Assembly (NCBI GenBank): GCA_016181005.1
Contig: JACPAE010000003.1
Coordinates: 62,001 to 126,000, forward strand
Reading direction: 5' to 3'
DNA: 64,000 nucleotides
Source of the DNA: Candidatus Aenigmatarchaeota archaeon
GTDB taxonomy: Archaea > Aenigmatarchaeota > Aenigmatarchaeia > CG10238-14 > SCSR01
Positions within the stretch are counted from its first letter, which is position 1. Every line of letters begins with the position of its first letter. The notes under the pieces are model-generated. The model ran no database searches. It had not been told where the DNA came from and was given only the letters and a program-made list of their open reading frames with translations. Positions 11,434-60,900 of this stretch are shown piece after piece. A program made the position numbers and the translations under genes.

Positions 11434-11435
11434 AA

Positions 11436-14001: not shown

Positions 14002-14005
14002 CTCC

Positions 14006-14539: not shown

Positions 14540-14587
14540 ATTCTATTTCTGAAACCAAAGCTATTAAAAGTTACGCCAGCTGAGTGT

Positions 14588-42454: not shown

Positions 42455-45400
42455 TTAAGTCGGGTTACCACCCGTTAATGCAACACTCCAAGAGCCGAAT
42501 GTGAATGTAGTCGAATAAGTGCCTACTGCTGTCGGCGGCAACTTGACGTATATTGTCACTGTACCGTTGATCGCGGCTGTCTGTTCATGCAAGTCTTGCA
42601 GTGGGTATATCGTATCTGTCGTGTTGTAATTATGGGAGACATAGTATGTCGCTGCAGTCCCGTTTGATATGGTATAGTTCATAATTGTGTTGTTCGCCGT
42701 AGGTATTGTTGCTGCACCGGGTCCGCCTATTTTTGTCCAGTTTGCTATCCTGACTGCTGTAGCATTCACGCCTGTGGCATTTGTAGTTGTACTACCCAAG
42801 GTAATGTTGAATGTGAACGACCAACCGTTTCCATAAGTATTGTCATTTGTCGCGTTGATGTCTGACGAATATAGAGTTGCTGTCACACCGTCAAGTGTAT
42901 CAACACCGAACGCTCTTGTAATTGTAGTCGCATTATTTCCTGCATTGTCCTGTGCGGTTATCTGTATCGTTTGGTTGGCCTGGTCTGTCAACGCACTTGC
43001 GGTATATGAACAGCTAACATTTCTTGCATTGTACTGCGTGCAGTCTCTTGTAAAGTTGAAACCTGATATGTTTACAGTGATGCTGTTCACATCGATTCCG
43101 GCTCCTCCATCATTATCTATCAAAGTGAATGATATCGTTGGTGTTGTTGTGGTGACATTAGAGCCCGCTGTTGGTGACGTCAAATTCAATACCGGGATAT
43201 TTGTATCGTCTGCATTGCTTCTGACCATCGTTGGGCTGACCGTCAACTGCGATGAATAGTTCAAGTTCATGCTTACGAATGTAAAGTCCACATAGTTTGC
43301 CTTGCTCAATTGCAACAATACATTTCCACCAGTAACACCTCCAACTACATTGGATTGGTTAAGTGCCCAATAAATAACACCGTCCGCGGTGGAATTCGTA
43401 TCTGAGCTAGCGTTTCCGTCTATGGCTGCGAATGTCGAAGACCCAGATGTGACAATTGCCGTGACTGCTGTTACCGACCCTGTATTTACTTTAACCGAGA
43501 ATGGCATGTTCAAAGTTACATTCGCCTGCAACGATGAATTAACTGGGAAGTTGGCAGATGTTGTGTTGATGTAACCGTCTTTCCTCACAGTCATGTTAGC
43601 TCCCCCATTCCAGCTAGTATTAAGTGTGGAAACGTTTGCATAAAATACATTGGAATTCAATGAGCTTCGGAATACAGAGTTGTTTTCAACAAGTATCGTT
43701 CCTGCGCCTGCGGAGAAGTTCCTTGCAACTGTAACCCCTGAGTTCATGTTGTTGCTTTGGCTAAGCTCGTCTAATACGTTTATCCTCACAGAATAATTAA
43801 GCCCGTATATCGTGCTGTTCCAGTTGACCGTTACTTGGTTGCCTCCGGGAGTCGGTGTTGTAGACTGTGTGGAATTGATGAATCCTACTGAATTTGCGAC
43901 AAGATTTACTGCGCTTGTCCCTGGGACTGGTATGTATGCTATACCGCTACTATATCTTGTAGAGTTGACTGATGCGGATGCGGCAGTGCCTGAAACATTA
44001 ACTGCGGCCGCGCCCACAAAATCTGTCGACCCATTCAACAAGAAGCATGTATAGTTCAATTGGTCACATATGCTCAATACTCTAATGGTGAAATTAAGCG
44101 CGGAACCGTTTACATTCGAAAGTGCGTCTGCCGGGTTTGTCACATTAAAGACAACGCTACCATTCCTTGTAGTGGCACTTACGCTGGCCGCAACCGAAGT
44201 GTTCGTATAACCTCGGGCCGAAATCGTGATAGTCGATCTTGTATCATTGGATGCTGGTATAAATGCCACACCGCCGCTGTAGTTGCTGGCAAGTCCCGAC
44301 ACTTCAGCCACAGCTGCACCATCTGTAAGCGGAGCAATTCCACTAATATTGAAGCATGTAAAGTTCTGCTCGCTGCACGCATAGAATACACGGATTGTGT
44401 AAAGCATGTTCTGTGTCGCCTGTGCCTGTGCTGAAGTGTTTATTGGAAATACAGAAGTGCCATTGTCAACATACCCTCTCTTCGAGACATTGACATAAGT
44501 CGTTCCAGATATTACAAGGCTTGGCGTTGGAAGCGCGAAATATGCGAATGTGGCATCTGATGCATTTTGTGAAAACCCACCCGTGGCGTTTACGCTGTAA
44601 TTAATCGGAATAGCGCCCAATGCTACTCCTAATTCGTCATTGGCCTGCACTCTAAAGTTGAATGGCATCTGCAGAGTTATTTGCGACTGGTTGCTTGCGT
44701 TAATCGGGAAGTTTGCCGCAGAGCTAGTGTTGATGTAGCCATTCTTGGCTATCGTGACGTTAGTGCCGAAGAATGAAGCGTTTGTCAAGCTCGCGTTGGA
44801 GAAATAATAGACATTGTTGCTTTGCTTATCTGCTGTGACTAGGAATGCTGCGGCGAAAGTGTTGGCTCCAGGCGCGCCACCAGATGAGTTGAATCCGAAT
44901 GTGACACCGCTGTTCATGTAGCTTGAATTGCCTATGCCCAATTCATCGGTGACATTGATTCTTATGGTATAGTTCAGTCCCTTTCCTGTCGCATAAGCAC
45001 TGACTGCGTTGTCTGTAGTGTTAATTCCAGTACCGTTGAAAATTATTGTCCTTTGAGCGTCTGCGGTAGGAGTGACTGCTACTGTTCCGTTTACAAGGCT
45101 CAAGTTCCCTAGGAACGCGTTGACTGTAATCACAGATGTTCCTGTTGCATTTACATAAGCGTATGTGCTGTTGGTGTTGACCAAAAGTTCGTAAAAGACA
45201 TTGTTGGCCTGTTCAAATACATCGACACCTACCATTGTGGTACCGGCTTGGTTGTAAGTCGCGGTATTGTTCAATGTAAAGTTCCTCGTTCCCAATTCAT
45301 CGAATACAGACAAGACTCTGAGTGTAAATGGCAATGCATTGGCACGATCCGTAGCAACACCAGTTCCATCAGTAGTGTTGAACACTAGTCGAGTTTGAGC

Positions 45401-47299
45401 TGACTGATTTACAAATACTACCTTGGATATATTGACAAACCCGTCCTTCACAGCCGTTATAGTTATAGGCGTCGATGAGTTTGGATTAGTCGCATTGATA
45501 TAACCGTCAGAGCTATAAGTGGTATTCACAGCCCCGCCTATAGCCAAGCCTGATATCTGCACTGTAGATGCTGTTCCGTCTATCAGATAGCAATGACCTG
45601 ATGTCACCAATTCGTTGCATATGTCAGTGACCCTTACGGAAAAGTTCATTCCTGTGAATACAGCTGCCTGGGAAGTAGCGTTAATCAAGACCAAAGTGTT
45701 GTTCGTAGAATTGATATAACCAAGTTTTCCTACTGAAATGTTCGCAGACACGTTAGTCGTGTTGAAGTAATATGAGTTGGTCGACTGGGAACTGGCGGAT
45801 GTTATCGTATTGTTTAGCATTATAGTCACGCCATTGTCGAATACCGCCCCTGAGTCCAATTCATCTTCTGCAGTTATTTTCAAGCGGAATAACAACTGTG
45901 GCTGCATTGTTGCCTGTGTTGTTGCATTCACCGGCATGTCGACTACTGTGTTGTTGACATAACCTGACTTGGCTGTAGTCAGATTAATGGCAGTCCATGT
46001 TGTCGGGATGCTGAAATAATAGAGACTTCCGGATGATTGGTTGGCTGTTGATGCAGTGCCGTTTATCGAAAATCCAACGCCGTTATCGAATTGTGCCGTT
46101 GCTAAAAGTTCATCCGAGACATTCACTCTCACTACGAATATCAACGCGTATGTCGAATTTCCTGTAACTTGTGCAAGCGACGTATTTCCGAATCTAGGAC
46201 TGGTATCATTGTTGAATGTGGCATTGTTCAAGAAACCTGATCGTGACACCAAGATTGTAAAATTGTTCGAGCCTACAGCAACATCTGGGAGTGCATAGTA
46301 CTGTATATTGAACGCTGTGGCATTTGGCGCTGCCGTTGACTGCGTGATCGGAGTCGTTGGCGCTGTAAAGTATGTTATGTTTACAGTTGCTCCCGTGAGT
46401 GTATTTCCCAGCTGATCCTGTACTGTGACTTTGATGCCATACGGCAATCCTCCTGCTAATTCATAGCCGTTACCAGACTGTCCTGACGGTGAGTTGGTAT
46501 AACTGACGCTTGTTCTGTTTACATCTGTATACCCCAGCGATGTGACATTGTAAAGGAAAGTATCAGCCTGTTGATTGCTTATATTCCCGCTTTCGATAAC
46601 AACCAGACCAGCGCTGTTATCCGAATCATTGAATATGTGATCTACAGCCAGAGGGAATGTTATCTGGCTGCCGTTGTAAGGGTTTACAAATACACGAGCG
46701 CCTGTGGTATTGCCCAGTTCATTCAATATGTCAAAAGCTATGTCGGCGCTATCAATCGCTGCTGTGTAAACGGTACTTTGTGCCGAAGAGTCTCCTGTAC
46801 TGTTGGAAGTGTTGACTAGCCATGACCTTGCGCCGCTCACCCCGCCACTGGGCATCGTTACCGTGACGTTGATCAGCCTGTTGCTTCCTACAGGAATGCT
46901 GAACCCAGCGCCAGTGCAGTTGACGGCGGTTCTGAAAATTGTACATGCGTCGGTTGCATTTCCGGTTGCGTTTACTGCAGTTACTATGTATCCTGTGGCG
47001 TTAGATATGTTGACAAGCGATACGACACCATTATCAGAAGATGAACCAGGCTGGTTGGTTACATTGAATCTCCATATTATGCTGCCCACACCTGTCCTGT
47101 TGATTCTGTCGCTGTCTGAACTGTCGTCCACCGATACAACCACCGCAGCGAATGCAGTTGAAACCACCACCAAACTGACCAAAATAAAGCTGAATATGAA
47201 TGCGAAACTCGAAAAGTTTATATTATTCTGTGAATTCGAGCTTTTTAGTCCTTTTACCATAGATTTATATAAATCAGGGTGAATGGTTCCTAAAGACAT
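42455..47299 (-). CDS. Giant Asn/Thr-rich surface protein with DELG repeats
   Basis: The product is up to 1614 residues; the start could be ATG 47299 or ATG 47257 (MVKGLKSS), the latter giving a standard signal peptide (FAFIFSFILVSLVVVSTAFA). About ten modules of roughly 90-110 residues follow, each opening like a carboxypeptidase-regulatory domain with a DELG/DQLG tag and containing KNGYINT or KLGYINS. N-x-S/T sequons are extremely frequent, pointing to dense N-glycosylation. There is no C-terminal anchor. It is probably an S-layer-like or fibrous surface protein. Confidence 0.75.
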   Translation of the reverse strand: MSLGTIHPDLYKSMVKGLKSSNSQNNINFSSFAFIFSFILVSLVVVSTAFAAVVVSVDDSSDSDRINRTGVGSIIWRFNVTNQPGSSSDNGVVSLVNISNATGYIVTAVNATGNATDACTIFRTAVNCTGAGFSIPVGSNRLINVTVTMPSGGVSGARSWLVNTSNSTGDSSAQSTVYTAAIDSADIAFDILNELGNTTGARVFVNPYNGSQITFPLAVDHIFNDSDNSAGLVVIESGNISNQQADTFLYNVTSLGYTDVNRTSVSYTNSPSGQSGNGYELAGGLPYGIKVTVQDQLGNTLTGATVNITYFTAPTTPITQSTAAPNATAFNIQYYALPDVAVGSNNFTILVSRSGFLNNATFNNDTSPRFGNTSLAQVTGNSTYALIFVVRVNVSDELLATAQFDNGVGFSINGTASTANQSSGSLYYFSIPTTWTAINLTTAKSGYVNNTVVDMPVNATTQATMQPQLLFRLKITAEDELDSGAVFDNGVTIMLNNTITSASSQSTNSYYFNTTNVSANISVGKLGYINSTNNTLVLINATSQAAVFTGMNFSVRVTDICNELVTSGHCYLIDGTASTVQISGLAIGGAVNTTYSSDGYINATNPNSSTPITITAVKDGFVNISKVVFVNQSAQTRLVFNTTDGTGVATDRANALPFTLRVLSVFDELGTRNFTLNNTATYNQAGTTMVGVDVFEQANNVFYELLVNTNSTYAYVNATGTSVITVNAFLGNLSLVNGTVAVTPTADAQRTIIFNGTGINTTDNAVSAYATGKGLNYTIRINVTDELGIGNSSYMNSGVTFGFNSSGGAPGANTFAAAFLVTADKQSNNVYYFSNASLTNASFFGTNVTIAKNGYINTSSAANFPINASNQSQITLQMPFNFRVQANDELGVALGAIPINYSVNATGGFSQNASDATFAYFALPTPSLVISGTTYVNVSKRGYVDNGTSVFPINTSAQAQATQNMLYTIRVFYACSEQNFTCFNISGIAPLTDGAAVAEVSGLASNYSGGVAFIPASNDTRSTITISARGYTNTSVAASVSATTRNGSVVFNVTNPADALSNVNGSALNFTIRVLSICDQLNYTCFLLNGSTDFVGAAAVNVSGTAASASVNSTRYSSGIAYIPVPGTSAVNLVANSVGFINSTQSTTPTPGGNQVTVNWNSTIYGLNYSVRINVLDELSQSNNMNSGVTVARNFSAGAGTILVENNSVFRSSLNSNVFYANVSTLNTSWNGGANMTVRKDGYINTTSANFPVNSSLQANVTLNMPFSVKVNTGSVTAVTAIVTSGSSTFAAIDGNASSDTNSTADGVIYWALNQSNVVGGVTGGNVLLQLSKANYVDFTFVSMNLNYSSQLTVSPTMVRSNADDTNIPVLNLTSPTAGSNVTTTTPTISFTLIDNDGGAGIDVNSITVNISGFNFTRDCTQYNARNVSCSYTASALTDQANQTIQITAQDNAGNNATTITRAFGVDTLDGVTATLYSSDINATNDNTYGNGWSFTFNITLGSTTTNATGVNATAVRIANWTKIGGPGAATIPTANNTIMNYTISNGTAATYYVSHNYNTTDTIYPLQDLHEQTAAINGTVTIYVKLPPTAVGTYSTTFTFGSWSVALTGGNPT

Positions 47300-47420
47300 T
47301 TAAAAGTATTTGGGAAACCTTATATATAAACCTTTTTCCGGGAAAATTTTGCATAATTTTTATTTTTCCAAGCTTTTTCAAGCAGTTAATCTTATATACT
47401 GCGATTTACGGGGTATAATA

Positions 47421-48065
47421 ATGCTGGTTGTAAGGCATCGTGTCAACAAAATTGCCGATTTGAGGCAGGTAGAGCCTAAATACGGCGTGGAAATCGACGT
47501 AAGGCACGACAACAGGACCGGAAGGCTTTATTTGAACCATGATCCGGGCACTGGTGACGACTTTGAGGATTATATGGAGGTTTTTGCAAGCCAGGGGAAC
47601 AGGTTTGTTATATTTAACATCAAGGAGGCTGGTATTGAGGCCAGGGTTATAGAGGTCGCAAAGAGGCTTGGCATTGAGGATTACTTTCTTTTGGACGTGG
47701 AATTTCCGTTTATTTACCGTGCGGCTTTTGGTGATGGTGTTTCTGGACTTGATGGCAGGATTGCGATAAGATATTCCGAAGCAGAGCCGATAGAGCAGGC
47801 GCTGATGCTTGCCGGTAGATTAAAGTGGGTTTGGGTGGACACGAACACTAGATTGCCTTTAGATAAGGAAAACTACAGGAAATTAAAGGAGGCTGGTTTT
47901 AAACTTGCACTAGTCTGCCCTGAGAGATGGGGCAGGCCGCAGAACATACCGAAATTCATAGAGCAGATGAAGGGGGACGGGGTAATGGTTGATGCTGTTA
48001 TGACTGCCAAGGATTATGTAAAGCAGTGGGAAGAGAGTGGTATCCTAACTAGCTCTGGTAATTAA
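47421..48065 (+). CDS. Glycerophosphodiester phosphodiesterase-like protein
   Basis: ATG 47421 gives 214 residues of a GDPD-type TIM barrel: VEIDVRHD near the start, LNHDPGTG (catalytic His), FVIFNIKEAG (where Lys is typical) and WVDTNTR late. A TTATATACT promoter lies about 27 bases before the ATG, so the mRNA is probably leaderless; the longer frame to 47310 includes the promoter. As first gene of a glycan cluster it may act on glycerol-phosphate parts of a surface polymer. Confidence 0.72.
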   Translation: MLVVRHRVNKIADLRQVEPKYGVEIDVRHDNRTGRLYLNHDPGTGDDFEDYMEVFASQGNRFVIFNIKEAGIEARVIEVAKRLGIEDYFLLDVEFPFIYRAAFGDGVSGLDGRIAIRYSEAEPIEQALMLAGRLKWVWVDTNTRLPLDKENYRKLKEAGFKLALVCPERWGRPQNIPKFIEQMKGDGVMVDAVMTAKDYVKQWEESGILTSSGN

Positions 48066-48066: not shown

Positions 48067-48864
48067 ATGACAAACCTAGTCCCTATGGCAGGTGAAGGCA
48101 AGAGGTTCAAGGATGCAGGCTATACAATGCCCAAACCTCTAATTCCAGTCTCCAGCAAGCCTATGATAGTCCAGGCGATAAAAGGCATGCCACCATCAGA
48201 CAAATGGATTTTTATCTGCAGGAAGGAGCATGTTGAAAATTATAAAGTCGACGAAATCCTAAGGAAAGAAATTCCTGATGCCCAGATAATCACGGTTGAT
48301 AAAACTACAGAAGGGCAGGTATCCACATGCCTGCTCGCAAAGGATTTGATAGACAAGAATGAGCCTTTGTACATAGGCACATGCGATGCCACGAAAGTAT
48401 GGGATCTGGAAAAATGGAGTGCATTAATTGCAGACAAGAGCGTCGATGGAATCATCTGGGCGTTCACAAGGCAATTCAATCTTGTAGCCAATCCTAAAGC
48501 ATGGGGATGGGTAGATGTTGATGAAAGTAATGTTGTGAAAAGGATTTCTGTCAAAGTCCCCATAAGCGACAATCCTTACAACGACCAGGCAATCATCGGC
48601 GCGTTCTGGTTCAGGACAGGGCAGCTATTCATAGACATGGCCGAAGAATTAATCAAAAGAAACATTAGAGTCAATAACGAGTTCTATGTAGATTCGATTC
48701 CTAATGTTATGCTAGAGCACGGCATGAAGGTCAAGACTTTTGTCGTCGACAAGTACATCGGCTGGGGTACGCCTGTGGATTTGCAGACTTACGAGTACTG
48801 GGAAGACTACTTCAACAAGAATCCTGGCCATCCTTATAAGAAGCCAGCTGCCGAACAGGGTTAA
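48067..48864 (+). CDS. Sugar-phosphate nucleotidyltransferase (1)
   Basis: The 265 residues have the NTP-transferase start LVPMAGEGKRFKDAGYTMPKPLIPV (cited in part: MAGEGKRF and PKPLIPV) and the acidic metal site in IGTCDATKVWD. The end WGTPVDLQTYEYWEDYF is shared with the paralogue at 52795. These enzymes make NDP-sugars or NDP-polyols for surface glycans. The sugar is unknown. It starts 1 base after the GDPD gene. Confidence 0.8.
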   Translation: MTNLVPMAGEGKRFKDAGYTMPKPLIPVSSKPMIVQAIKGMPPSDKWIFICRKEHVENYKVDEILRKEIPDAQIITVDKTTEGQVSTCLLAKDLIDKNEPLYIGTCDATKVWDLEKWSALIADKSVDGIIWAFTRQFNLVANPKAWGWVDVDESNVVKRISVKVPISDNPYNDQAIIGAFWFRTGQLFIDMAEELIKRNIRVNNEFYVDSIPNVMLEHGMKVKTFVVDKYIGWGTPVDLQTYEYWEDYFNKNPGHPYKKPAAEQG

Positions 48865-48911: not shown

Positions 48912-51026
48912 GTGAGCAGGATGAGCAAGGTTCCGTCTGTATTCAGATCAAAGCTATTTGTCGGTATACTTATTTTGAAAGTAGTAGCCGCATTTATTTT
49001 CGGCTCCGACTTTATCGTGAATGGCTTTATTCCTTTTGTGAAATATTTTGTAGAATCGGGCTTTCAGGACCCTTACCAGCACTTTGCCGACATAGGAGAG
49101 ACTAAAGCGTTTCCCTATCCGACAATAATGCTCCTGATGGTGACATTGCCGTACGCATTCCTTGCAAAGATTTCCACTTTATGGACTAGTGACGCTTTCC
49201 TGAATCTTTTCGTCCTTAGGCTGCCCATACTGGCTACGGACCTGTTCATCTTCTACGTCCTGATAAGATGGCTAAGAACACGTGAGGATAAAGTTCTGAA
49301 ATACTACTGGGCATCTCCAATCCTTTTCTATATCAGCTACATCCACGGCCAGCTAGATGTCATACCAATAGCCATCCTTTTCATGTCCTTGGTTTTCCTT
49401 TTCAGGAACAAACTGGCGCTGTCGTCGCTTACTTTAGGTATGGGAATTGCAACCAAGACCAACATCCTCCTCACTCTGCCTTTCATGGCAGTCTACATCT
49501 GGAAGAACAGGTCATTCAATGATGCGGTAAGGTTTGCAGTGCTGTCTTCAGTAACTTATGCGATACTGATAGCTCCATTCCTCACATCGCAAGGATTTGT
49601 GCACATGGTCTTCGGCGCATCCGAGCAATTCCGCGTGCTAGATCTCGCGATTCCACTCGGCTACCAGAACATAGTCCTCCTTGCGGCGCCTGCGGCATAC
49701 TTGCTGCTTCTGTTCAACTTTTCATCCTACGAGAAGCTGAACAAGGACGCGCTGATGATGATGCTTGCTCTAGTCTTCACAGTTGTCGTCACTTTGGTTC
49801 CGCCTGCGCAAGGATGGTATTACTGGGCTGTGCCATTCCTGATTTATTTTTTCGTCAAGCAGGAGAAGGTGCCGATGATAAGCTTCTGGGCGATCAACAT
49901 TCTTTACCTTGGATATTTCCTGTTCAGCCAGAGCTCAGACATATTCCAAGTTTTCCAAGTAATATCGCCGCAGATAGCAAGCCTGCCAACCCCTTACCAT
50001 ATTGTGGAAGGCTACGGCGTAAATCCTTTGACAATCTCCAACATCCTTTTCACAGGGTTGGCCGCGTCAATGATAATGACTGCATTCTGGACATACACCA
50101 TAGGAGTCAAGTCCAATCTCGAATACAAGCTCAGGGAAAGGCCCACAATTGTGGGAATAGGCGGCGATTCTGGGGCAGGAAAGAGCACCAACGCTGACTT
50201 GCTTTCAGGGATTTTCGGCGAGAATGGCTCTCTAATAGTGAACGGCGACGACATGCACAAATGGGAGAGAGGAAACGAGAACTGGCAGGTGTTCACGCAC
50301 TTGAATCCTTTTGCAAGTCGGCTGCATGAAGACTTGGAGCAATCAGTCGCATTGACCGAAGGCAACAGAATCACCAGGGTGATGTACAACCACGAAACAG
50401 GCAAGTTCACGGAGCCTGTCGAGATAGAGCCTAACAAGTTCATAGTATTCGTCGGGCTGCATCCTTTCTATTTGAAAAAGATGAGGGATCTTTATGACGT
50501 GAAGGTTTACATGCATCCTTCCGAGGAATTGAAGCTGCACTGGAAACTGTTGCGCGACATGTCTGAAAGGGGGTATACTAAGAAGCAGGTTCTGCAACAG
50601 CTGAGGAAAAGGCAGAGGGACAGGGCAAAGTTCATAGATCCGCAGAAGCAGTTCGCGGACATTGTAGTGAGCTATTTATTGAAGAAGAAAATTGACAAGA
50701 TCGGCTTGCCGAAAGCCAAGGTAGACATGATGCTGAAGATATGGCTGGACAACAGCATAAACATGGAGCCATTTGTGAAAGTCCTCTCCTCTGTAAAGGC
50801 GCTGAAGGCGAGCAATTACCAGAAGGACGACTTGAAGACACAGTGCTGCGAGTTTTACGGTACAGTAACAGAGAGGGAGCTTGAAGATTGTCTGTACAAG
50901 CTTGTGCCGAACTTCGAAGAATTAATTCACAACCAATCGCCGCAGTTTGAAGACGGGTACAACGGCATCTACCAGCTCTTCTTTATTTACTATCTGAGCG
51001 AGATATCTAAATTCAGAGGGAAATGA
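48912..51026 (+). CDS. GT-C-like membrane glycosyltransferase fused to uridine kinase-like domain
   Basis: The N-terminal 400 residues hold about eleven membrane helices with an early outer loop (DPYQHFADIGETKAFPYP) like polyprenyl-phosphate-sugar-dependent GT-C enzymes. From about 410 comes a P-loop kinase domain: GGDSGAGKST, VNGDDMHKW and a following helical lid, as in uridine kinase/phosphoribulokinase. The C-terminal 130 residues are helical. Both parts are in one uninterrupted frame. Start is GTG 48912 or ATG 48921. The kinase may phosphorylate a lipid-linked sugar; this is inference. Confidence 0.72.
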   Translation: MSRMSKVPSVFRSKLFVGILILKVVAAFIFGSDFIVNGFIPFVKYFVESGFQDPYQHFADIGETKAFPYPTIMLLMVTLPYAFLAKISTLWTSDAFLNLFVLRLPILATDLFIFYVLIRWLRTREDKVLKYYWASPILFYISYIHGQLDVIPIAILFMSLVFLFRNKLALSSLTLGMGIATKTNILLTLPFMAVYIWKNRSFNDAVRFAVLSSVTYAILIAPFLTSQGFVHMVFGASEQFRVLDLAIPLGYQNIVLLAAPAAYLLLLFNFSSYEKLNKDALMMMLALVFTVVVTLVPPAQGWYYWAVPFLIYFFVKQEKVPMISFWAINILYLGYFLFSQSSDIFQVFQVISPQIASLPTPYHIVEGYGVNPLTISNILFTGLAASMIMTAFWTYTIGVKSNLEYKLRERPTIVGIGGDSGAGKSTNADLLSGIFGENGSLIVNGDDMHKWERGNENWQVFTHLNPFASRLHEDLEQSVALTEGNRITRVMYNHETGKFTEPVEIEPNKFIVFVGLHPFYLKKMRDLYDVKVYMHPSEELKLHWKLLRDMSERGYTKKQVLQQLRKRQRDRAKFIDPQKQFADIVVSYLLKKKIDKIGLPKAKVDMMLKIWLDNSINMEPFVKVLSSVKALKASNYQKDDLKTQCCEFYGTVTERELEDCLYKLVPNFEELIHNQSPQFEDGYNGIYQLFFIYYLSEISKFRGK

Positions 51027-51067
51027 CATGTATAGAATTTATTCCAGTGTTGTATTTAGGTGAATGT

Positions 51068-51745
51068 ATGGAGCAAAGCGGACCAATTTATGTATTTGAT
51101 GCTGACGGCGTCATTTTCGATGGCACTATGAAGATTATGGGAAATGTTTTTTCAGAATCTCTTGTAGCATATGGTATTCCACCAGAAGACGCATTGTCTT
51201 TTTACTTAAGCACCGCCGGCCAGCCGATAGAAAAGCAGTACGGAGACGCTTTATTGAGGTTTGGTGCCACGGTTGAAGATGGCCGAACTGTAAGAAAACT
51301 CACAGAGTATTTTCAATCTAATGCCTATAGAGAAATGCCACAGCTATATCCAGACGTAATACCTGCCGTGGAAGCTCTAAGAAATCGTAGAATGGTTGTT
51401 TCTACTAATACACCACAAGATGTATTGACCAGAAGGATTAATTATTATGGTTTAAATAATTATTTTAAGAGATGGTTTGGCCGAGGATACAGTGGAATTA
51501 CAGATAAGGCACATCATAAAGGTTCTATAATTGGCTACCTTGGTGTTAGCGAGGAAGAGTTTCAGAGATATGGGTTACTAATCGGGGATGGTCTGCATGA
51601 TATGGAGATTGCTACGGAATGGGGCATAAAGGGAATCGGTAGGCCGACTGAAGGCACTACAGCCGAAGCTTTAATGCAAGCTGGGGCGGTAGAAACTGTT
51701 GAGAACTTGGCATACTTGGTAGAACTTGAGAAAAAATTATTTTGA
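51068..51745 (+). CDS. HAD-superfamily phosphatase
   Basis: ATG 51068 (MEQSGPIYVFDADGVIFDG) gives 225 residues with motif I DADGVIFDG, motif II VVSTNT, motif III Lys (DKAHHKG) and motif IV LIGDGLHD. This is a small phosphate-monoester hydrolase of the beta-phosphoglucomutase/phosphoglycolate type. The frame is open to ATG 51023, which overlaps the previous stop codon (ATGA), so a coupled earlier start is possible. It lies between the kinase fusion and the aldolase in the glycan cluster. Confidence 0.85.
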   Translation: MEQSGPIYVFDADGVIFDGTMKIMGNVFSESLVAYGIPPEDALSFYLSTAGQPIEKQYGDALLRFGATVEDGRTVRKLTEYFQSNAYREMPQLYPDVIPAVEALRNRRMVVSTNTPQDVLTRRINYYGLNNYFKRWFGRGYSGITDKAHHKGSIIGYLGVSEEEFQRYGLLIGDGLHDMEIATEWGIKGIGRPTEGTTAEALMQAGAVETVENLAYLVELEKKLF

Positions 51746-52794
51746 TGATTATTATGGAAGAAATAAGCGAGCTTGTAAGAATCTCGAATGAAATAGGAGA
51801 ATTAAAAGCTCTGGTGCAGGCCGGTGGTGGCAATTCATCAGTAAAAACTAGTGGCGGAGAGATGGTCATCAAAGCGTCAGGATTTACCTTCGCTGAAATG
51901 ACGGAGATTTCTGGATTTACAAAACTGGACCATGAACAAATAAATGATTTTTTTGAAAATTACAAAGCTGTTGTCGATGCAAATGAAAATGAGGCTGCCT
52001 ACAACCGAGTGCTTAAACAGGCGATGCTCAACCACACAATGCCCAAGCCGTCAATGGAAGCCGGCATGCATGTCTTTCTAGACAGAGTAGTAGTCCACAC
52101 TCACCCTGTGATGGCGAACATATTGAACTGCATGAAAGGTGGTGAAAAAATTGCCAGAGATTTGTTTTCTCACATGTCCCCGGAGTTGATGTGGGTTGAT
52201 TATGTAAATCCTGGTTTTTCACTGGCAAAAGAAATAAATAGCTCTGTTAACTCGTACGTGAGGAAGAATGGCGTGAAACCGGAAGTTATTTTTCTGAAAA
52301 ACCACGGCATTATAGTTTCCGGTAAAGATTCCAAAAGATGCGTCCAGCTCACGATTTCAATCAACCAGAAAATTTTCGAATATTTAAAAGGCAATTTTGG
52401 TTTGGAAGAATTTCCAGAGCCGCAGCTTGAACTCAAGGACGGGCTATTTCTCAACAACAATGGTGTTGCAAAACAATTTGTGCAGAAGCTGGAGGGGAAC
52501 AAACATTTGCTTTCAAAGTTCCTGATACCGGACGATGCTATTTACTGCTCCAAGTTTTTAATAGCGGACAGCCTGTCTGATGCGGAGGACAAGATTGCAT
52601 TCAGCAGACAAGGTGTGGCATTTCCGTGGGGTGAGAAGAAATCAATAAAGGTGAACGAGATGCTGGTCGCCAAGCTCTACATCTTAGATGCATTGAAGAA
52701 GATTGGTGATGTGGAATTCCTCAAAGAGGAGGACGTCAATTATATTCTTAATATGGAAAGCGAGAAATACAGACAAAATTTGGATAGTGGTTAG
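51742..52794 (+). CDS. Class II aldolase/adducin-like protein
   Basis: The 350 residues have the class II aldolase layout: QAGGGNSSVK (phosphate site), KASGF, PSMEAGMH, zinc ligands HTHP and the later FLKNHGIIVSG. A further C-terminal domain of about 120 residues follows. Relatives cleave or form sugar phosphates. Next to two nucleotidyltransferases and a HAD phosphatase, it probably makes the polyol or sugar precursor of the surface glycan. The ATG overlaps the HAD stop codon. Confidence 0.83.
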   Translation: MMIIMEEISELVRISNEIGELKALVQAGGGNSSVKTSGGEMVIKASGFTFAEMTEISGFTKLDHEQINDFFENYKAVVDANENEAAYNRVLKQAMLNHTMPKPSMEAGMHVFLDRVVVHTHPVMANILNCMKGGEKIARDLFSHMSPELMWVDYVNPGFSLAKEINSSVNSYVRKNGVKPEVIFLKNHGIIVSGKDSKRCVQLTISINQKIFEYLKGNFGLEEFPEPQLELKDGLFLNNNGVAKQFVQKLEGNKHLLSKFLIPDDAIYCSKFLIADSLSDAEDKIAFSRQGVAFPWGEKKSIKVNEMLVAKLYILDALKKIGDVEFLKEEDVNYILNMESEKYRQNLDSG

Positions 52795-53571
52795 ATGAAA
52801 GTTGTAGTGCTGATGGCGGGAGTAGGTGAAAGGTTTGAAAAGGCTGGGTATAAAGAGCCAAAGCCGCTGGTGAAAGTAGACGGCAAACCGATGATAGAGC
52901 GTGTCGTAAACATGTTTCCAGGTGAAGAAGATTTTGTCTTTGTATGCGACAACGAGCATCTGAGGAAGACTGAAATGAAAAGGGTGCTTACATCTCTAAA
53001 ACCTAATGGTTTGATAGTAGGCATAAATCATCAGCAGCTGGGAGCTGTGTGGAGCATGCTTGAAGCTTTAAAGAAAATCGATTTCCTGAAGGATGATGAG
53101 CCGGTGATAGTCACCTATTGCGACTTTGACGTGTGGTGGAGCTATGATGATTTTAAAAGGAAAATGGTGGAGACAAAATGCGATGCTGCAGCAACGGCGT
53201 ACAAGGGATTCCATCCTCACTTGATAGGGCCGCAATTGTATGCCGGGATGAGAACAGACGAAAACAATTGGATGTTGGAATGCAGGGAAAAGTTCAGCTT
53301 CACTGAGAACAAGATGGACTCATACCAGCAGGCAGGCTCGTTCTATTTTTCGTCAGGGGCTCTGCTGAAAAAATACTTGCTGGAAGTAATCAAACGTGGC
53401 ATGATTGTTAATGGTGAATACTACATCAGCGTTGTCACCGAAGCAGTGAGGCAGGACGGCCACAAAGTCTACGTCTATCCTCTTGAGCATTTCCTCCAAT
53501 GGGGAGCGCCTCAGGATCTGCAAACTTATCAGTTCTGGTCCGACTATTTCAAATTAAAATCGAATGAATAA
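52795..53571 (+). CDS. Sugar-phosphate nucleotidyltransferase (2)
   Basis: The 258 residues are a paralogue of the enzyme at 48067: MAGVGERFEKAGYKEPKPL, catalytic DFDVWW and the end QWGAPQDLQTYQFWSDYF. The glycine loop is intact. The ATG immediately follows the aldolase stop codon. Two copies in one cluster point to two different activated building blocks. Confidence 0.8.
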   Translation: MKVVVLMAGVGERFEKAGYKEPKPLVKVDGKPMIERVVNMFPGEEDFVFVCDNEHLRKTEMKRVLTSLKPNGLIVGINHQQLGAVWSMLEALKKIDFLKDDEPVIVTYCDFDVWWSYDDFKRKMVETKCDAAATAYKGFHPHLIGPQLYAGMRTDENNWMLECREKFSFTENKMDSYQQAGSFYFSSGALLKKYLLEVIKRGMIVNGEYYISVVTEAVRQDGHKVYVYPLEHFLQWGAPQDLQTYQFWSDYFKLKSNE

Positions 53572-53573
53572 TT

Positions 53574-54296
53574 ATGAAGAGTGTTGATCTCTCGATTGTT
53601 CTGCCGTGCTACAACGAGGCCAAGAGCATACCATTCCTTCTGAAAAGATTTGCTGAAGTTATTGGTAAAATGAATGTGGAGCTTGTCATCGTAAACAACG
53701 GCTCGTACGACAACACCGTGGAGGTTCTGGAAAAGGAGTTGAAGAATCCCAAATACAAGTTTGCGCGGGTTGTTACTGTTAAGAGGAACAAGGGCTACGG
53801 CTATGGCATACTGTTCGGTTTGAAAAGCTGCAAAGGAGACGTGCTTGCCTACACGCATGCAGACCAGCAGTGCGACCCTCTTGATGTCATACGGGCATAT
53901 GATGAACTGGTGAAATATCCAGACATGAAAAGAGTCCTTGTAAAGGGCAAAAGAATTACCAGAGTGCTCAGGGAGCTAATCATCACAAAAGGCCTCCACA
54001 TGATTGCAACAATTCTGTTTTTCAGGAAATTTGACGACATAAACTGCCAGCCCAAAGTTTTCTACAAGTCCTTCTTTGAGAAATTGGCGCAAGCGCCGCA
54101 CGATTTCAAGTTCGACTTTTACGTGCAATACATGGCTATGAAAAGTGAGATGAAAATCAAAAGTATACCAGTGAAGTGGGGCCAAAGGAAACACGGCGAG
54201 TCCCATTGGGCATACAGCACAATTTCAAAAATTAAGACTTATTGGGACTTTTTCAAATATCTAGCAAAATTAAGCATTATGGACCTTTTCAAGTGA
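53574..54296 (+). CDS. GT2 family glycosyltransferase (DPM1-like)
   Basis: The 240 residues have DLSIVLPCYNEAKSI, VIVNNGSYDNT, GYGYGILFGL and HADQQCDP (DxD-like, here ADQ), then QRKHGESHW. This pattern is that of dolichol/undecaprenyl-phosphate sugar transferases of GT2. No membrane helix is seen except a possible C-terminal amphipathic segment. It likely loads a sugar on the lipid carrier used by the GT-C enzyme at 55020. Confidence 0.85.
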   Translation: MKSVDLSIVLPCYNEAKSIPFLLKRFAEVIGKMNVELVIVNNGSYDNTVEVLEKELKNPKYKFARVVTVKRNKGYGYGILFGLKSCKGDVLAYTHADQQCDPLDVIRAYDELVKYPDMKRVLVKGKRITRVLRELIITKGLHMIATILFFRKFDDINCQPKVFYKSFFEKLAQAPHDFKFDFYVQYMAMKSEMKIKSIPVKWGQRKHGESHWAYSTISKIKTYWDFFKYLAKLSIMDLFK

Positions 54297-54300
54297 TAAG

Positions 54301-54657
54301 ATGCATTCGAATTTTAAAGGAATGTTAATAATTGGCGTGTGCACAATATTGACAACTATAGCCCAGCTTTTCTTCAAATCCGGCTCGCAGTACTTGAGTT
54401 TCTCACTGACTTTTCTGACAAATCCTTACATAATTTTAGGATTCTTGGCATATGGCATTACCTCGCTCCTGTTTGTTTTTGCGCTGAAGTTTGGCGACTT
54501 GTCGCTTCTCTATCCTGTGTGGTCTCTTAGTTTCGTGTGGATAACTATGAGCTCAATATTTTTTCTTAATGAGAGTGTAACTGTCATGAACTGGATTGGA
54601 ATTGGATTAGTTATCACCGGGATTTCGCTAATAGGATTGGGTGCTAAAAATGGTTGA
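54301..54657 (+). CDS. Small four-helix DMT/SMR-type transporter (1)
   Basis: The 118 residues form four membrane helices with SMR/EamA-like features (LTTIAQLFFKSGSQYL, PVWSLSFVWITMSSIFFLNE, WIGIGLVITGISLIGLG). Paired half-size members such as ArnE/ArnF flip lipid-linked sugars. The next gene overlaps by 8 bases and encodes the partner. Confidence 0.75.
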   Translation: MHSNFKGMLIIGVCTILTTIAQLFFKSGSQYLSFSLTFLTNPYIILGFLAYGITSLLFVFALKFGDLSLLYPVWSLSFVWITMSSIFFLNESVTVMNWIGIGLVITGISLIGLGAKNG

Positions 54658-54988
54658 CATATTGCCCGTATCGTTGGCTGTCATTGCAACTGTATTGGGA
54701 GCGACTGCTTCGATTTTTTTCAAACTTGCATCAAAGAAAGTTCATGGTATTAAAGAATTCCTACACAACAAGGAATTTTTTGCTGGAGGTTTTCTTTTTG
54801 CAATCTCAACGTTATTCATGATATCCGCACTAAAGTTTGGAGAACTATCCGAAATATTCCCATTGACAGCACTTACATACATATGGGTGGCTATATTATC
54901 GGTCAGAATTCTGAAGGAAAATATGTCAGCTGTAAAAATTGCCGGCTTCATGCTGATTATACTTGGGATACTTTTTGTAGCAATGTAG
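54650..54988 (+). CDS. Small four-helix DMT/SMR-type transporter (2)
   Basis: ATG 54650 gives 112 residues in four helices, similar to the upstream protein (GATASIFFKLASKK, FPLTALTYIWVAILSVRILKE, KIAGFMLIILGILFVAM). The overlap with gene 1 and the flanking GT2 and GT-C genes suggest a heterodimeric flippase for a lipid-phosphate sugar. GTG 54641 is an alternative start. Confidence 0.74.
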   Translation: MVDILPVSLAVIATVLGATASIFFKLASKKVHGIKEFLHNKEFFAGGFLFAISTLFMISALKFGELSEIFPLTALTYIWVAILSVRILKENMSAVKIAGFMLIILGILFVAM

Positions 54989-55019: not shown

Positions 55020-56522
55020 GTGAGTCTGTTGAAGCAGGGCTTGATTAAAAAACTTTTTAGCATAGAAACTGTTCTGATAATTTTCATATTTGCAGGGATA
55101 TTCTTCCGATTTTACAACCTAGCCATTCCGCTACAGGGCGATGAAGTGATATACGGGATAGCGTCGATGAAATTCCATCAGGAAAGTTACGAGGCTGGCA
55201 AGGATTATGTGCTGGAACACCCTCCGCTGGGTAAATGGCTTGTTGGTCTGCCATCTAAGTTTATTGATGCCAACTATGACACGTTCAAGCTTCTGGGAAA
55301 GGACATGTTTGTTTGGGCATATATGGGGTATGATGCGCTTGGCAAAAATTATGTTGCACTGAGAACAATGGTGGCTGTTGGCGGTGTTCTATCCCTTATC
55401 CTTATATTTCTAATCGCAAGAAAACTTTTCGGAACTACAGCTGCCCTATGGAGCACTGCACTCGCATCTTTGTCTTTCGAGCTTGTAGGGTTTAGCAGGA
55501 TGATTTTCATGGAAACTCCGATGATCCTGTTCTCTCTCCTGACTCTGTACGTCTATCTACACTATCTCGATTCGTCAAATAAGAAGAGGATTTTATATCT
55601 TGGACTGTTCTTTATCTCGCTTGTCGCAACTCTTTTGACGCGCCACATACAGCCTCTGTTTCTATTGCCAATATTCGCTGTGTGCCAGTTTGCACTTAAC
55701 AAAAACCTGAAAGAAAATTTGTACGTATTGCTCTTTCTTGGCCTTTCATACTATCTCGTGTTCCACATCATATTTCCGCAGGATATTATAGGCTATGGCG
55801 GAAGCAGGTTTGGCTATTCTAGCATTTTTGGCTTTTTCTCGTTCAAGCTTTTTGATGTTGTCATGAGCTTGCTTGTAAGAAATTCTCTCTTGTTCCTAGC
55901 ATCGCTGTGCTCCTTAGGCTACATCGGCTATAAGATAGTCAACAAAAAACAAAAGATGGAACTGAATCCTGTGCTAATATTTTTCATCATGTCGGCCGCC
56001 ATGTTCTCAATCCTAAGCTTCCCGCTCCCACGGCATTATATTTTCATGTTTATCCCGCTGTACATATTGGGCGGTTATGCGCTCCACTACGCTTCCAAGA
56101 ACAGGATTTTGAAATTAGGTCTTGTTGCATTGGCTATTGTCAATGTAGGCATGTTGGCATTTTATTCCCCACAATTCCTGACTTACACAAATTTCGGCAT
56201 CAGCGGATTTGAGAGTGTTCCGAATGCATATGACCAGTTCTCTAATCTTCGAAATAGACTAAACGCACTTAATGACACAGAACGTCTAGTGACAAACGAC
56301 CCTAACTTACTAATATTTTTCGAGAGCCAAAAGATGCCGATTCCGCCTGCGGTAGAGCCAGTCTGTAATAATGCAACAATCAGCACACTGGACTTGGACA
56401 ATATCACTGTGCTGTACGCACCTCATTCTTCAAAGTTAGATTTTGAAAATGATCCTTATATTTGCCCTCTGTTCAAGTCAAAGTTGCTTGAATCGTCCAA
56501 CGTAAGAATTATTGAACTATAG
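55020..56522 (+). CDS. GT39/GT83-like membrane glycosyltransferase (ArnT/PMT family)
   Basis: The 500 residues contain about ten to twelve membrane helices. The outer loop after helix 1 has GDEVIYGIASMKF and HPPLGKW, the motifs of ArnT and protein-mannosyltransferase-type enzymes (Asp-Glu catalytic base). They transfer sugar from a polyprenyl-phosphate donor to surface targets. Start is GTG 55020, with TATTTATAA about 25 bases upstream. It converges with the surface-protein gene 4 bases away. Confidence 0.82.
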   Translation: MSLLKQGLIKKLFSIETVLIIFIFAGIFFRFYNLAIPLQGDEVIYGIASMKFHQESYEAGKDYVLEHPPLGKWLVGLPSKFIDANYDTFKLLGKDMFVWAYMGYDALGKNYVALRTMVAVGGVLSLILIFLIARKLFGTTAALWSTALASLSFELVGFSRMIFMETPMILFSLLTLYVYLHYLDSSNKKRILYLGLFFISLVATLLTRHIQPLFLLPIFAVCQFALNKNLKENLYVLLFLGLSYYLVFHIIFPQDIIGYGGSRFGYSSIFGFFSFKLFDVVMSLLVRNSLLFLASLCSLGYIGYKIVNKKQKMELNPVLIFFIMSAAMFSILSFPLPRHYIFMFIPLYILGGYALHYASKNRILKLGLVALAIVNVGMLAFYSPQFLTYTNFGISGFESVPNAYDQFSNLRNRLNALNDTERLVTNDPNLLIFFESQKMPIPPAVEPVCNNATISTLDLDNITVLYAPHSSKLDFENDPYICPLFKSKLLESSNVRIIEL

Positions 56523-56526: not shown

Positions 56527-57951
56527 TTATTTGTATTTACTTTTCACTTGATCCCAAGGAGTCCCTTTATTGAACAGCTTGGAGAATACGCCTTTCTTGT
56601 ATAGTACAAATCCTGCAACACCCAGCAAAACCAGGCCGCCAAGTATCAAAATGTTTCCTCCTTTGGTTAACTCGGTAAGTTCCGGCGGTATACCCGCCTC
56701 AGGCTCTGGTGCAGGTGTCGGCGTCACGACTGCTCCTGTCGCACTTTCTCCGGCTATTGCAAACACGGAAAGGCCGGGAGATGTGGCTTCGTAATAAATA
56801 ACGTCAGTCTCCCCTCCAAGCTCGCCCATCTTTGTCGTCACTAACTTTGTCCAAGCATTGCTCTCATATCTGTACAAGGCGACTGTCGACTCGTTCACGC
56901 TGTTGGAGCTTAGCCAGCTTTTTTCGACTTTGAACCTTATCACCGACTGGTTGACTGCTGTGTCAACAGCTGTGCTGTTTTTGTCGATCTGTATATAATG
57001 GTAAACTTTTCCGGAAATTTCCTGCGTCACGCTTGCAGGCATGCTTGCCAGTTTTGTGACTGTGACCTGAATGTTATTGACAGAATTCTTGACACTGATT
57101 ATAATCAAGCTAATGGCAACGTCTTCAGTTTTGTTTATGTTGACGTTTGCTGATTTGCCAGCTGATATTGACGGGATGGTTATGGTTGCCAGCCCTTTCT
57201 GCGTAGTGACTTTAACTCCTGGTGTGGTAGTTACTGAAGTAGTTGTTGTTGTTGTTTCTGTTGTTGTTGGTGACGCTGGAACAGTCAAAGCCTGCGTGAC
57301 CGTCAGTGTCTGACCGTTCGACGCCGTAATTGTTGCTGTGCCTGTATAGGATCCAGCGGCGCCCGTAACAGTAACTTCATGATTATTAACCGAACTTCCA
57401 CTTACTGTCTGTGTACCAGATGGGGCTGTACATGTGGCAGCACCGCAACTTGTACTAACTGTATAAGTTGTAGATGCGTCTCCTGCATTGTTAACCCCTA
57501 TTGTGAAGATCACGCTTCCGCTCTTCTGTGTCGAAGACGCTGTCAAGGAGGCTGGTGATAGCACTTTCAAACCGGTCTGCTCGCTGTCAGATAAGGAACC
57601 ACCAGTACCAGAGTCTGTTCCTGAAACACTTACGGTTATTTTATTGCTGTAATCACCCGCTGCACTTCCGCTGCACGACCAGCTGGATGTGCCGCTTCCA
57701 GCCGAGTCAAGCGAAACAGACTGGGAGCCAGTTGGTGTACAACTTATGCCAGTAGGCAGGTCCAAAGTTCCGGAAACACTAGATGCACTCGAGCCAGAAA
57801 TAGAAGCTGAGAGCGTAAAGCTGTCGCCTTGGTTTGCACTTGACGGTATTGTTACACTTGCTATCGATAAAGATCCCGCAATAGCCAAATTAACGCTATA
57901 GAAAATGGTGAAGATTGCTGCGGCCAATACCAATATTGCTCTTCTATTCAT
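56527..57951 (-). CDS. Surface protein with PGF-pre-PGF domain and membrane anchor
   Basis: The 474 residues have a signal peptide (AILVLAAAIFTIFYSVNLAIA), Ser/Thr-rich Ig-like domains, a Thr linker (TTTETTTTTTSVTTT), a PGF-pre-PGF domain (VNNIQVTVTKLA ... YHYIQIDKNST ... RFKVEKSWL) and a C-terminal membrane helix (about 428-448) with a basic tail. The ATG shares one base with the stop codon of the 1804-residue gene (TGATG), so the two are co-translated. It is probably the membrane stalk for the larger secreted partner. Confidence 0.8.
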   Translation of the reverse strand: MNRRAILVLAAAIFTIFYSVNLAIAGSLSIASVTIPSSANQGDSFTLSASISGSSASSVSGTLDLPTGISCTPTGSQSVSLDSAGSGTSSWSCSGSAAGDYSNKITVSVSGTDSGTGGSLSDSEQTGLKVLSPASLTASSTQKSGSVIFTIGVNNAGDASTTYTVSTSCGAATCTAPSGTQTVSGSSVNNHEVTVTGAAGSYTGTATITASNGQTLTVTQALTVPASPTTTETTTTTTSVTTTPGVKVTTQKGLATITIPSISAGKSANVNINKTEDVAISLIIISVKNSVNNIQVTVTKLASMPASVTQEISGKVYHYIQIDKNSTAVDTAVNQSVIRFKVEKSWLSSNSVNESTVALYRYESNAWTKLVTTKMGELGGETDVIYYEATSPGLSVFAIAGESATGAVVTPTPAPEPEAGIPPELTELTKGGNILILGGLVLLGVAGFVLYKKGVFSKLFNKGTPWDQVKSKYK

Positions 57952-60900
57952 CAGCTCACCACAAACATGGCAGATGCCACTCCCGACGAAGTCGATTTAT
58001 CCAATCTCACGTAATATGTACCCGCTACCGATGGCGTGAATGTGTTGTAGAACCTGGAGCCAGATGTTTGGGTTAAAGGTAATGATACTGTTGTTGTGAT
58101 GTTGTTGGACGTTGTAAGTACTCTGGCCGTTGAATTTGCAGTATTACTTATGATGAAGACTGTGCCACCAGTTGAGAATGCGCTGCTATTGGTTGTCAAG
58201 CTTGATCCCGACCATACAGCCGGTGCTGTAGTTCCCGACGCAACACTTGTTACGGATCTTACAGTAGAATTGCCGCCTACATTGTTTACCCTCAGCATAA
58301 AGACATAAATTCCCGTGTCTGTTATGTTCACAGTCACATTCTGCGGCGTATTCGCAGTCATTGCTATGCTGGAATTATCGTAGACCACTGAAGTGGCCAC
58401 TGGAGAGAATACTCCTAAGCGGGCTGTTGATGTTGCTGAAGAGAAGATTGTCACGCTGAATGCCTCGCCTGCTGTAATACTTGTAGGGATGCTTATGTTG
58501 ACGATTTCAGAACTATTTGCCACACTTATCAAAGCAAAGTCGAATCCTTTTGAACCGTTAAAAGTAAATTCAACGCCAGCGCCAAAAGTGCCTATAGAGG
58601 AAGAATCGTTTGGAATCGACAAACTCGCCGTATACGGCTGGCTGTTGCCTACAGTTAATGGCGTTGTTATTATTCCCCTGTCTTCATCGAAGATAGATAT
58701 GAATCCTGTTCCACCGCTAGCGTTAACCGAAGTTCCGCTGCTGGAATTTGTGACTGTAACGTTGAATCCAATTGCTTCGCCGACATTGTAGGTTGTCTTG
58801 TTTGTTGAAAGCCTAACTACCAGCCCGTTGACTATGTAACCGGAATATGCTGTGAGTGAGGTATCATTTGTTATGAATGCGTGTACAAAATATTCGCCGT
58901 CTGTCGAGCCCATATTGGAAACTGATAGCGTAGATATGCCTCCCGCATTAGTGTTTGCTGATCCAAGTGAGCTTGGCGGCCTGCCCGGCGCTCCCCTCTC
59001 GAAGCTTATGTTGTACCCGACAGCTCCTGTTCCATTTTCATAAGTAAGTGTTGCTACAAGCGATCCGCTTGAGCTTGGCGAATAAGATCTTTTGTTAGGC
59101 TCTACCGAAAGCCTCAGTGCGTTACTTCCTGTAACAGTTAATGAAGCCGGTGGAGCGAATCCTGCACTCCCGTCTGAAGTAGAAACGCTAACATCAAGTC
59201 CGTATGTTAATTTTGGTGCGAAAGAAGGAATCTCAATTGAGAGTGTGGCATTGCCTTTGGTTGTTGTATTGGTTATTTCTGTCGGTCGCCCGAATGCCCA
59301 CAATCGTAAAGTAACAATTGAACCATCCGCTACGTCAAAGCCTCCTCCTGATGAGGCATTAACATAAATATTAACAGTAGTTCCAGGTGTGCCTGTAAAG
59401 CTATTGACTATCGCCGCGCCTGCTGTACCAGGAGTTGCATTCATCAAACTTACGCTAAGTGAAGAAACCATTATACCTGCATACTGTACTTGATTGTCAA
59501 CCAACACCTTCGCATAATGAGGACCACTTCTATTGCCAACGTTTAGGAACAATTGTGCAATCCCTTGCGTGCTTGTATTTGTGTAATTATACGTATTATT
59601 ATGTGACACGTTTATGTCGTTGGGTGGGCTTACCTTGTATAGAGTTACAACTACTTGTTTGCTACTTACAGGCTGACCTGTTGACGAGTTTATGACTTTG
59701 ACACTAAGATTAAGGAGTTCGTTTGCATTGAACTTGAATTCGAGTGTTGCTCCTCTGCGAGTTTCCACTTGAATATTTGTTGAAATAACTTCAAACCCTG
59801 TAAATATATCCTGGCTCCCGCCGGAAGTGGAAACCGTAACTTTTACACTATGTCTGCCAACTTGACGTGTACCTAAATCAAATTGATAAAAGCCAGGACC
59901 TGATTGATTTGCTGTATAAGTAACATTGCTCAAGCCATCTAATACTGCTGTTGGATTTGATGATAAGGTAGTGCTGGGTGGAACAAAGACGTTGACCTTT
60001 ACAGTGTCGGTTGTTGAATAGGATGGTTTCTCCGTCTCTACAAAAGCTTCAATTCCCCTTACTTCAAATCCGTAAAATGACTCCAAATTGATTACTTGTG
60101 TCGCCGTGTCTTTAGAAATCTTGACTTTTATGCTATGGAAACCAAAGCTCCAGGTGCTTCCAGTTATCTGACTTGGATTTAATGTCAGCGTTGCTTTGCC
60201 ATTGCTATCGGTAATGCCTGTTATTGGATTTCTATTGCTGTCGACAGTTACTTCCACATTGGCATTGGCTATTCCCGCGCTAGAGCTTGCATTTCTTACT
60301 TCTACTGAAACAATGACATTGTCTGAAGGCTGATAGGAAAACCTGTCTGTAGATAGTTTGATCGCAAGGTTGCTGACTTGGAGCCAAGTTTCTGCAGTAC
60401 CTGACTTGCCACTTCCGTTGACAGTTGCAGCCAAATTATAAAATCCTACTGTGCTTGGAGCCAGAAGCGAAAAGCTACCTTCGCCATCTACAATGCCGCT
60501 GCTCGCATTGGTCGAATTAACTGGTGCGCCTGTAGAGTCCTGAATTTCAATCCTTAGTTGACCCGATGCCACTCCAGTTGGAGGATTGGTTGTTGTATCA
60601 AATGCATAAACTTTACCATTGATTAATTGGCCTGTGCCAAATGTGAAACCTCCGAGATTGATTCCTACGGAAAAGTCTGATAGGGAAACTGGCATTGTGA
60701 AGGTTGAAGTGTATGAACTAGATCCGCTGACATTAGTTGCATTAACCAAAAGTAGATATTTACCTGCTGTCATCCCTCCATAGGCAGCGGCCGAGAAATT
60801 AGCAGTCCTGTTGTAGAAAATCTGCGCAGTTGGGTCGTAGGCTAAATTCAATACAGCTGAAGTTCCTGCTGCGCTTCTATTAGGATAGAGCAATTGTGCT

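Follow-up and report, generated by a model that had tools for sequence, protein, structure and literature searches.

The window, a 64,000-nucleotide stretch of DNA from an Aenigmatarchaeota genome of 0.74 Mb, carries on its forward strand an open reading frame (48912-51026, +) that begins with GTG, has no internal stop and encodes a protein of 704 amino acids. Residues 1-404 (48912-50123, +) make up a GT-C glycosyltransferase half with approximately 10-13 membrane helices, and residues 405-704 (50124-51026, +) make up a phosphoribulokinase (PRK)-type kinase half that includes a PRK-like C-terminal domain. The AlphaFold model of the whole 704-residue fusion has a pLDDT of 83.5.

The fusion gene and its neighbors

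The genes between 47.3 and 55.0 kb are all encoded on the forward strand and spaced by -17 to 47 bases, an operon-like arrangement. Their order is GDPD-like phosphodiesterase, nucleotidyltransferase NTPa, fusion, HAD phosphatase, class II aldolase, nucleotidyltransferase NTPb, GT2, and two small EamA/SMR proteins. The GDPD/PI-PLC-like phosphodiesterase (47379-48065, +) is 41% identical to the product of an E. coli plasmid gene annotated as PI-PLC/GDPD; its start lies inside the open reading frame 47310-48065, probably at the ATG giving MLVVRHR. Residues H20, R21, E38, D40, H54 and K82 (slice numbering) are conserved in the alignment, and a profile of the protein had no match in the PDB. NTPa (48067-48864, +; Pfam NTP_transferase, 7e-7) and NTPb (52795-53571, +; NTP_transf_3, 1.7e-10) correspond to the C-terminal half (41-42% identity) and the N-terminal half (41-43%), respectively, of fused bacterial NTPb-NTPa proteins. 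The HAD phosphatase gene (51023-51745, +; HAD_2, 2.6e-8) overlaps the fusion gene by 4 bases, and its product is 47% identical to the second HAD protein of a related Aenigmatarchaeota locus, L002. The other cassette HAD, which matches the bacterial cassettes (L002:7328-8008), is without a close copy in the window genome, where the best match is 34% over part of the protein. The class II aldolase/adducin-family protein (51742-52794, +; Aldolase_II, 2.6e-18) is divergent, with 23-26% identity to the bacterial cassette aldolases; E106, H119, H121 and H188 are conserved in the alignment. These four residues, and H20, R21, E38, D40 and H54 of the GDPD-like protein, are presumed to be catalytic, as in the fuculose aldolase and GDPD families.

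The GT2 (53574-54296, +; Glycos_transf_2, 1.3e-21) is of the polyprenyl-phosphate sugar synthase type (GtrB/ArnC-like). Its best NCBIfam model is ArnC (PRK10714), below the cut-off, and it is 39-44% identical to the GT2 of bacterial cassettes. The two small EamA/SMR proteins (54301-54657, +, EamA 2.2e-6; and 54641-54988, +, EamA 5e-9) are 31% identical to each other and are proposed to be the subunits of a lipid-sugar flippase, encoded as an ArnE/F-like tandem. After this pair lies a second GT-C (55020-56522, +; PMT family, 8.5e-15), so that either of two transferases in the cluster could make use of the flippase.

Eight additional full-length relatives, 27-74% identical to the window protein, have the same GT-C plus kinase layout. 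They include L002 from Aenigmatarchaeota (74% identity), L003 from Armatimonadota (35%), proteins encoded on plasmids of E. coli, Azospirillum brasilense and Hirschia baltica (27-29% in the alignment), L011 from another Aenigmatarchaeota family, and L018 and L019 on IMG/VR contigs. The recurrence of one layout in relatives this distant excludes chance and rules out a frameshift or assembly artefact. The sequence-only reading had placed a membrane half resembling GT-C and a cytoplasmic kinase half with a P-loop in one frame, as the open reading frame and profiles bear out, and had named homologues that are always two genes as the sign of an artefact; every relative bearing the GT-C half has the fused form. 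A stand-alone GT-C half was not found among 156 genomes of the phylum and 72,556 plasmids, and scans of the viral collection with the window fusion protein or with its N-terminal half gave no match. The fusion of a GT-C with a PRK-type kinase is real, conserved across archaea and bacteria, and misannotated. In the kinase-domain tree the fusions are not resolved as one clade, which accommodates both a single origin and spread of the fused gene. The first reading knew of no established enzyme with this layout, which agrees with the openly accessible full-text literature, in which no description of the fusion or the cassette was found and the only relevant report was that on three-component systems discussed below.

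The neighbors of the fusion are likewise shared, among Aenigmatarchaeota as well as with bacteria. On the E. coli and Azospirillum plasmids the fusion has the same neighbors, except that NTPb and NTPa are a single protein and GtrA replaces the SMR pair. On the Hirschia plasmid the same cassette genes are scattered across 15 kb, and most of the set is also present on the Armatimonadota contig. The L011 protein begins with an additional GtrA flippase domain and is a GtrA-GT-C-PRK triple fusion. In every lineage the partners of the fusion are glycan genes. The cassette, of seven to eight genes, occurs in DPANN archaea and several bacterial phyla, on plasmids and, partially, in phages.

Identity of the two halves

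The membrane half, scanned alone, matches Pfam ALG3 at 24.2 bits, just above the cut-off of 23.6 bits. ALG3 was also matched by the membrane halves of four of five relatives, and Alg6_Alg8 by one of the five (8e-9). A profile match to GPI mannosyltransferase 1 was obtained with an E value of 3.6e-5. The AlphaFold model of the N-terminal half alone has a pLDDT of 70, and its best Foldseek matches are ALG6, PimE, ArnT, GPI mannosyltransferase I and ALG12 (E 2e-3 to 7e-2, probability 1.00). All of these enzymes use polyprenyl-phosphate sugars. Residues invariant in this half of the fusion alignment include D53, D110 and G146xxD149, with D53 and G146xxD149 as the two highest invariant acidic motifs. 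The modeled fold, the multiple membrane helices and the acidic residues in putative outer loops, whose side of the membrane is itself predicted, place this half in the GT-C superfamily. A polyprenyl-phosphate sugar is its putative donor, as supported by the neighboring GT2 and flippase genes.

The kinase half matches Pfam PRK (PF00485) over residues 413-593 (E 9e-36), a family that includes both PRK and uridine kinases, and NCBIfam phosphoribulokinase PRK07429 over residues 408-639 (E 7e-61), at 206 bits, below the 236-bit cut-off of that model. In profile searches it matched solved PRKs at approximately 1e-60 and uridine kinases at approximately 1e-26. For the model of the whole fusion protein, the best Foldseek match is the cyanobacterial PRK 9qkp, with a target TM of 0.77-0.81 and approximately 316 aligned columns on 9qkp chains of 299-309 residues; the C-terminal half therefore corresponds to a whole PRK, including the C-terminal domain. 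Uridine-cytidine kinases align with no more than the first ~185 residues and score far lower than solved PRKs in this fold search as well.

The kinase half has the P-loop GDSGAGK and D446, H449, R453, Y492, H494, K545, R548, D549, R553 and R567. In a comparison of nine fusions, 11 viral kinases, three PRKs and three uridine kinases, H449, H494, K545, R567 and Q578 are kept in all fusions, viral kinases and PRKs and altered in the uridine kinases. No change is seen in the P-loop, the catalytic Asp-His dyad or any phosphate-binding residue across 20 sequences, down to 31% identity, and the equivalents of the ribulose-5-phosphate site and catalytic residues (the Asp-His dyad, H45, R49, Y98, H100 and K165) are all present in the window protein and 19 relatives. 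In solved PRKs, the equivalents of H449, R453, Y492, H494 and K545 bind ribulose-5-phosphate (PMC5241800), and the Asp-His dyad is catalytic (PMC9978339). Of the features that mark a class II PRK, the kinase half has the family profile, the ribulose-5-phosphate and catalytic residues and the C-terminal domain, and lacks the Walker-B glutamate. The window protein has V514 at this position, many relatives have Q, S, T or C (most fusions Q or S), and E occurs in L002 (the sister domain, 73% identical), in L011 and in several phage kinases. Replacement of the glutamate means that kinase activity may be weak or metal binding changed. By sequence, modeled fold and diagnostic residues, the kinase half is a complete PRK module, and it may act, as PRK does, on C1 of ribulose-5-phosphate.

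The acceptor-site Tyr, Phe and Arg that in uridine-cytidine kinases replace the His, His and Lys of PRK are absent, and the kinase-domain tree sets the three uridine kinases apart with full support. Residues, fold and tree all speak against a uridine kinase, and the uridine kinase-like domain of the earlier reading is better described as phosphoribulokinase.

A candidate sugar-donor pathway

The kinase domain also occurs without the GT-C half, in 19 further IMG/VR loci (L020-L038; approximately 11 are distinct, since near-identical copies are included). In 17 of the 19, the kinase has aldolase, HAD, GDPD-like and NTP genes no more than 9 kb away; the remaining two, L027 and L037, are cut by contig ends. 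The resulting module of five activities (PRK-type kinase, class II aldolase, GDPD-like enzyme, HAD and nucleotidyltransferase) is found, for example, at L025:3600-8106, L022:7983-11217 and L028:7359-13070. In L025 the five activities form a tight run on a contig that is also phage-like, with a terminase-like open reading frame. Kinase-aldolase and HAD-NTP gene fusions occur in L020-L024, and in L022, where the kinase is joined to the aldolase and the HAD to the nucleotidyltransferase, the NTP part is closer to NTPa. Cyanophage S-SM2 encodes NTP, aldolase, HAD and GDPD-like genes and a nearby PfkB-type kinase, without PRK. A role in anti-phage defence was rejected, PADLOC giving no match. Since phage contigs pair the kinase with these partners where the GT-C half is missing, the kinase most likely helps to make an activated sugar, and the fusion to GT-C appears to be one way of using it.

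Four related archaeal genomes contain the NTP pair and lack the fusion. The three such loci that were examined, L070, L071 and L072 from related Aenigmatarchaeota without the PRK fusion, have the NTP pair, GT2, SMR and Zn-dependent (polyol) dehydrogenase-like genes. L070 also encodes a ribulose-phosphate 3-epimerase (TIGR01163) and L071 a 6-phospho-3-hexuloisomerase (TIGR03127), both above the NCBIfam cut-offs. These two genes are consistent with a ketose-phosphate context for the pathway proposed here.

The occurrence of the same fused gene in the same small cluster in distant bacteria and archaea suggests that the fusion is probably part of an undescribed route to an unusual surface sugar. 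The explanation favored here, with somewhat more confidence than doubt, is that the fusion contributes two separate stations to a pathway of extracytoplasmic surface glycosylation, in which the kinase would aid synthesis of a donor from a ketose phosphate and the GT-C half would attach the sugar. The cytoplasmic kinase half would phosphorylate a primary hydroxyl on a ketose phosphate such as ribulose-5-phosphate, which the class II aldolase would supply or consume. The HAD phosphatase would then take off one phosphate, and one or both nucleotidyltransferases would convert the product to an NDP-activated unit, following the kinase, phosphatase and nucleotidyltransferase logic of NDP-heptose synthesis; the GDPD-like enzyme would handle a phosphodiester intermediate. 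GT2 would load the unit onto polyprenyl phosphate, the SMR pair (GtrA in bacteria) would flip the lipid-linked unit, and the GT-C half would add it to an extracellular glycan or glycoprotein. Fusion would hold donor synthesis beside its only consumer. A ketose phosphate is the most likely starting point because the kinase has a ribulose-5-phosphate site and the aldolase is of the ketose type.

Several observations weigh against this explanation: the valine at the Walker-B position, the missing copy of the bacterial-cassette HAD in the window genome and the divergence of the aldolase. PRK-family enzymes phosphorylate primary hydroxyls, whereas in GT-C donors it is normally the anomeric carbon that is activated. 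For the scheme to work, the phosphate would have to be shifted or the unit linked by a different chemistry, and it may be speculated that the GDPD-like enzyme is a candidate for this extra step. A more specific version can be offered tentatively. The cassette could encode a new pathway for the production and export of an activated ketose, such as ribulo- or xylulofuranose, or of a unit derived from a ketose. Its PRK-type kinase would be tethered to the dedicated transferase, and its GDPD-like enzyme would move or cleave the phosphate via a cyclic phosphodiester; phages would use the genes for donor synthesis to decorate phage particles or the host.

Other roles for the kinase half have to be weighed. 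It could have lost enzymatic activity and serve as a sensor: with a ketose phosphate or ATP as ligand, it would gate the GT-C half and so match surface glycosylation to sugar supply. Loss of the Walker-B glutamate in the window and most fusions would fit such a role, as would fusion of the kinase to the consumer rather than to the donor-making enzymes, but a sensor is unlikely given the invariance, noted above, of the P-loop, dyad and phosphate-binding residues and the existence of free kinases with no GT-C to regulate. The physical joining of kinase and GT-C at the membrane is what recommends phosphorylation of polyprenol, or of a lipid-linked sugar beside the GT-C site, as a means of recharging the lipid carrier. 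Recharging would be expected with any GT-C, yet the kinase is seen only with this cassette, the ribulose-5-phosphate site residues are kept, and the same kinase occurs in phage clusters without a membrane partner; a role on polyprenol is highly improbable. The first reading had suggested that phosphorylation of a sugar or polyprenol could be coupled to membrane transfer; against polyprenol, the GT-C-less phage kinases with the same partners point to sugar-donor synthesis.

Hardly any weight can be given to a true uridine kinase feeding UTP to the nucleotidyltransferases. The E. coli plasmid gene is annotated "uridine kinase" and PF00485 spans both families, but H449, H494, K545 and R567 are the PRK residues in place of those of uridine kinases, the model shows the PRK C-terminal domain, and the uridine kinases group apart in the tree. 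It is barely conceivable, despite the similarity to class II PRK, that the kinase half is a Calvin-type enzyme that makes RuBP for RuBisCO and was accidentally fused: no RuBisCO gene was found in the three fusion-bearing archaeal genomes, in which controls matched, and the partner genes are those of glycan synthesis throughout.

Relation to known glycosylation systems

The favored two-station pathway has clear parallels. As in GtrA/GtrB/Gtr* and in ArnC, ArnE/F and ArnT, a GT2 lipid-sugar synthase, a small flippase (GtrA or SMR) and a GT-C are clustered; the three genes are linked in the window at 48912-54988, and GtrA, GT2 and the fusion are linked on the E. coli, Azospirillum and Hirschia plasmids. 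The joining of GtrA to GT-C in L011 recalls the Gtr systems and may be counted in support of three-component logic. In known Gtr systems the donor is housekeeping UDP-Glc. Unlike Gtr and Arn, the cassette GT-C bears a PRK-type kinase and the cluster carries its own five-enzyme donor route.

Dedicated donor synthesis, flippase, GT-C and HAD phosphatase are also combined in the three-component GT136 pentofuranose systems (Kelly et al. 2024, PMC11127046) and in mycobacterial arabinan synthesis. Both add an unusual furanose outside the cell; their starting compound is PRPP, and they employ a polyprenyl phosphoribose synthase together with a flippase of the MATE or SMR type. A synthase of this UbiA type was not found by Pfam or annotation among the cassette genes of the window or of the E. 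coli, Azospirillum and Hirschia plasmids; unlike GT136 systems, the cassette has NTP transferases, GT2, aldolase and PRK. None of the Gtr, Arn or GT136 systems is known to have a kinase attached to its GT-C. The cassette is best read as a variant of three-component extracytoplasmic glycosylation, behind which a new sugar-donor pathway is plausible.

The kinase half resembles class II PRK (cyanobacterial 9qkp/9qko and Methanospirillum 5b3f) in its fold across the whole 300-residue module and in its ribulose-5-phosphate site residues, and differs in its fusion to a membrane enzyme, its RuBisCO-less genome, its variable Walker-B glutamate and its glycan gene context. It appears that surface glycan synthesis has taken over a kinase fold of the Calvin-cycle type and joined it to the transferase, and a PRK annotation in RuBisCO-less genomes need not imply carbon fixation. 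The inferred order of kinase, HAD phosphatase and nucleotidyltransferase is like that of the ADP/GDP-heptose route (heptose-7-phosphate kinase, HAD phosphatase, nucleotidyltransferase), but the cassette also has an aldolase and a GDPD-like enzyme. Its kinase is of the PRK type, whereas HldE belongs to the PfkB family and works at the anomeric carbon of an aldose. Members of the cassette are misleadingly annotated as uridine kinase, phosphoribulokinase and PI-PLC, and the cassette is a compact, testable candidate for the source of an uncharacterised activated sugar.

Two very large open reading frames flank the cassette in the window, at 42455-47299 (-; 1614 aa) and 57951-63365 (-; 1804 aa). 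The product of the former looks like a surface protein and a possible target of glycosylation, because it has an N-terminal hydrophobic segment and many N-x-S/T sites. The cassette is present in two of 5426 complete E. coli genomes, those of a stool isolate and a bullfrog isolate. In the stool isolate the whole cassette lies on a 33-kb IncR plasmid (L006; NZ_CP145712.1, p5-S1-CAM-01-A, 6022-14984), with an IS26 transposase downstream.
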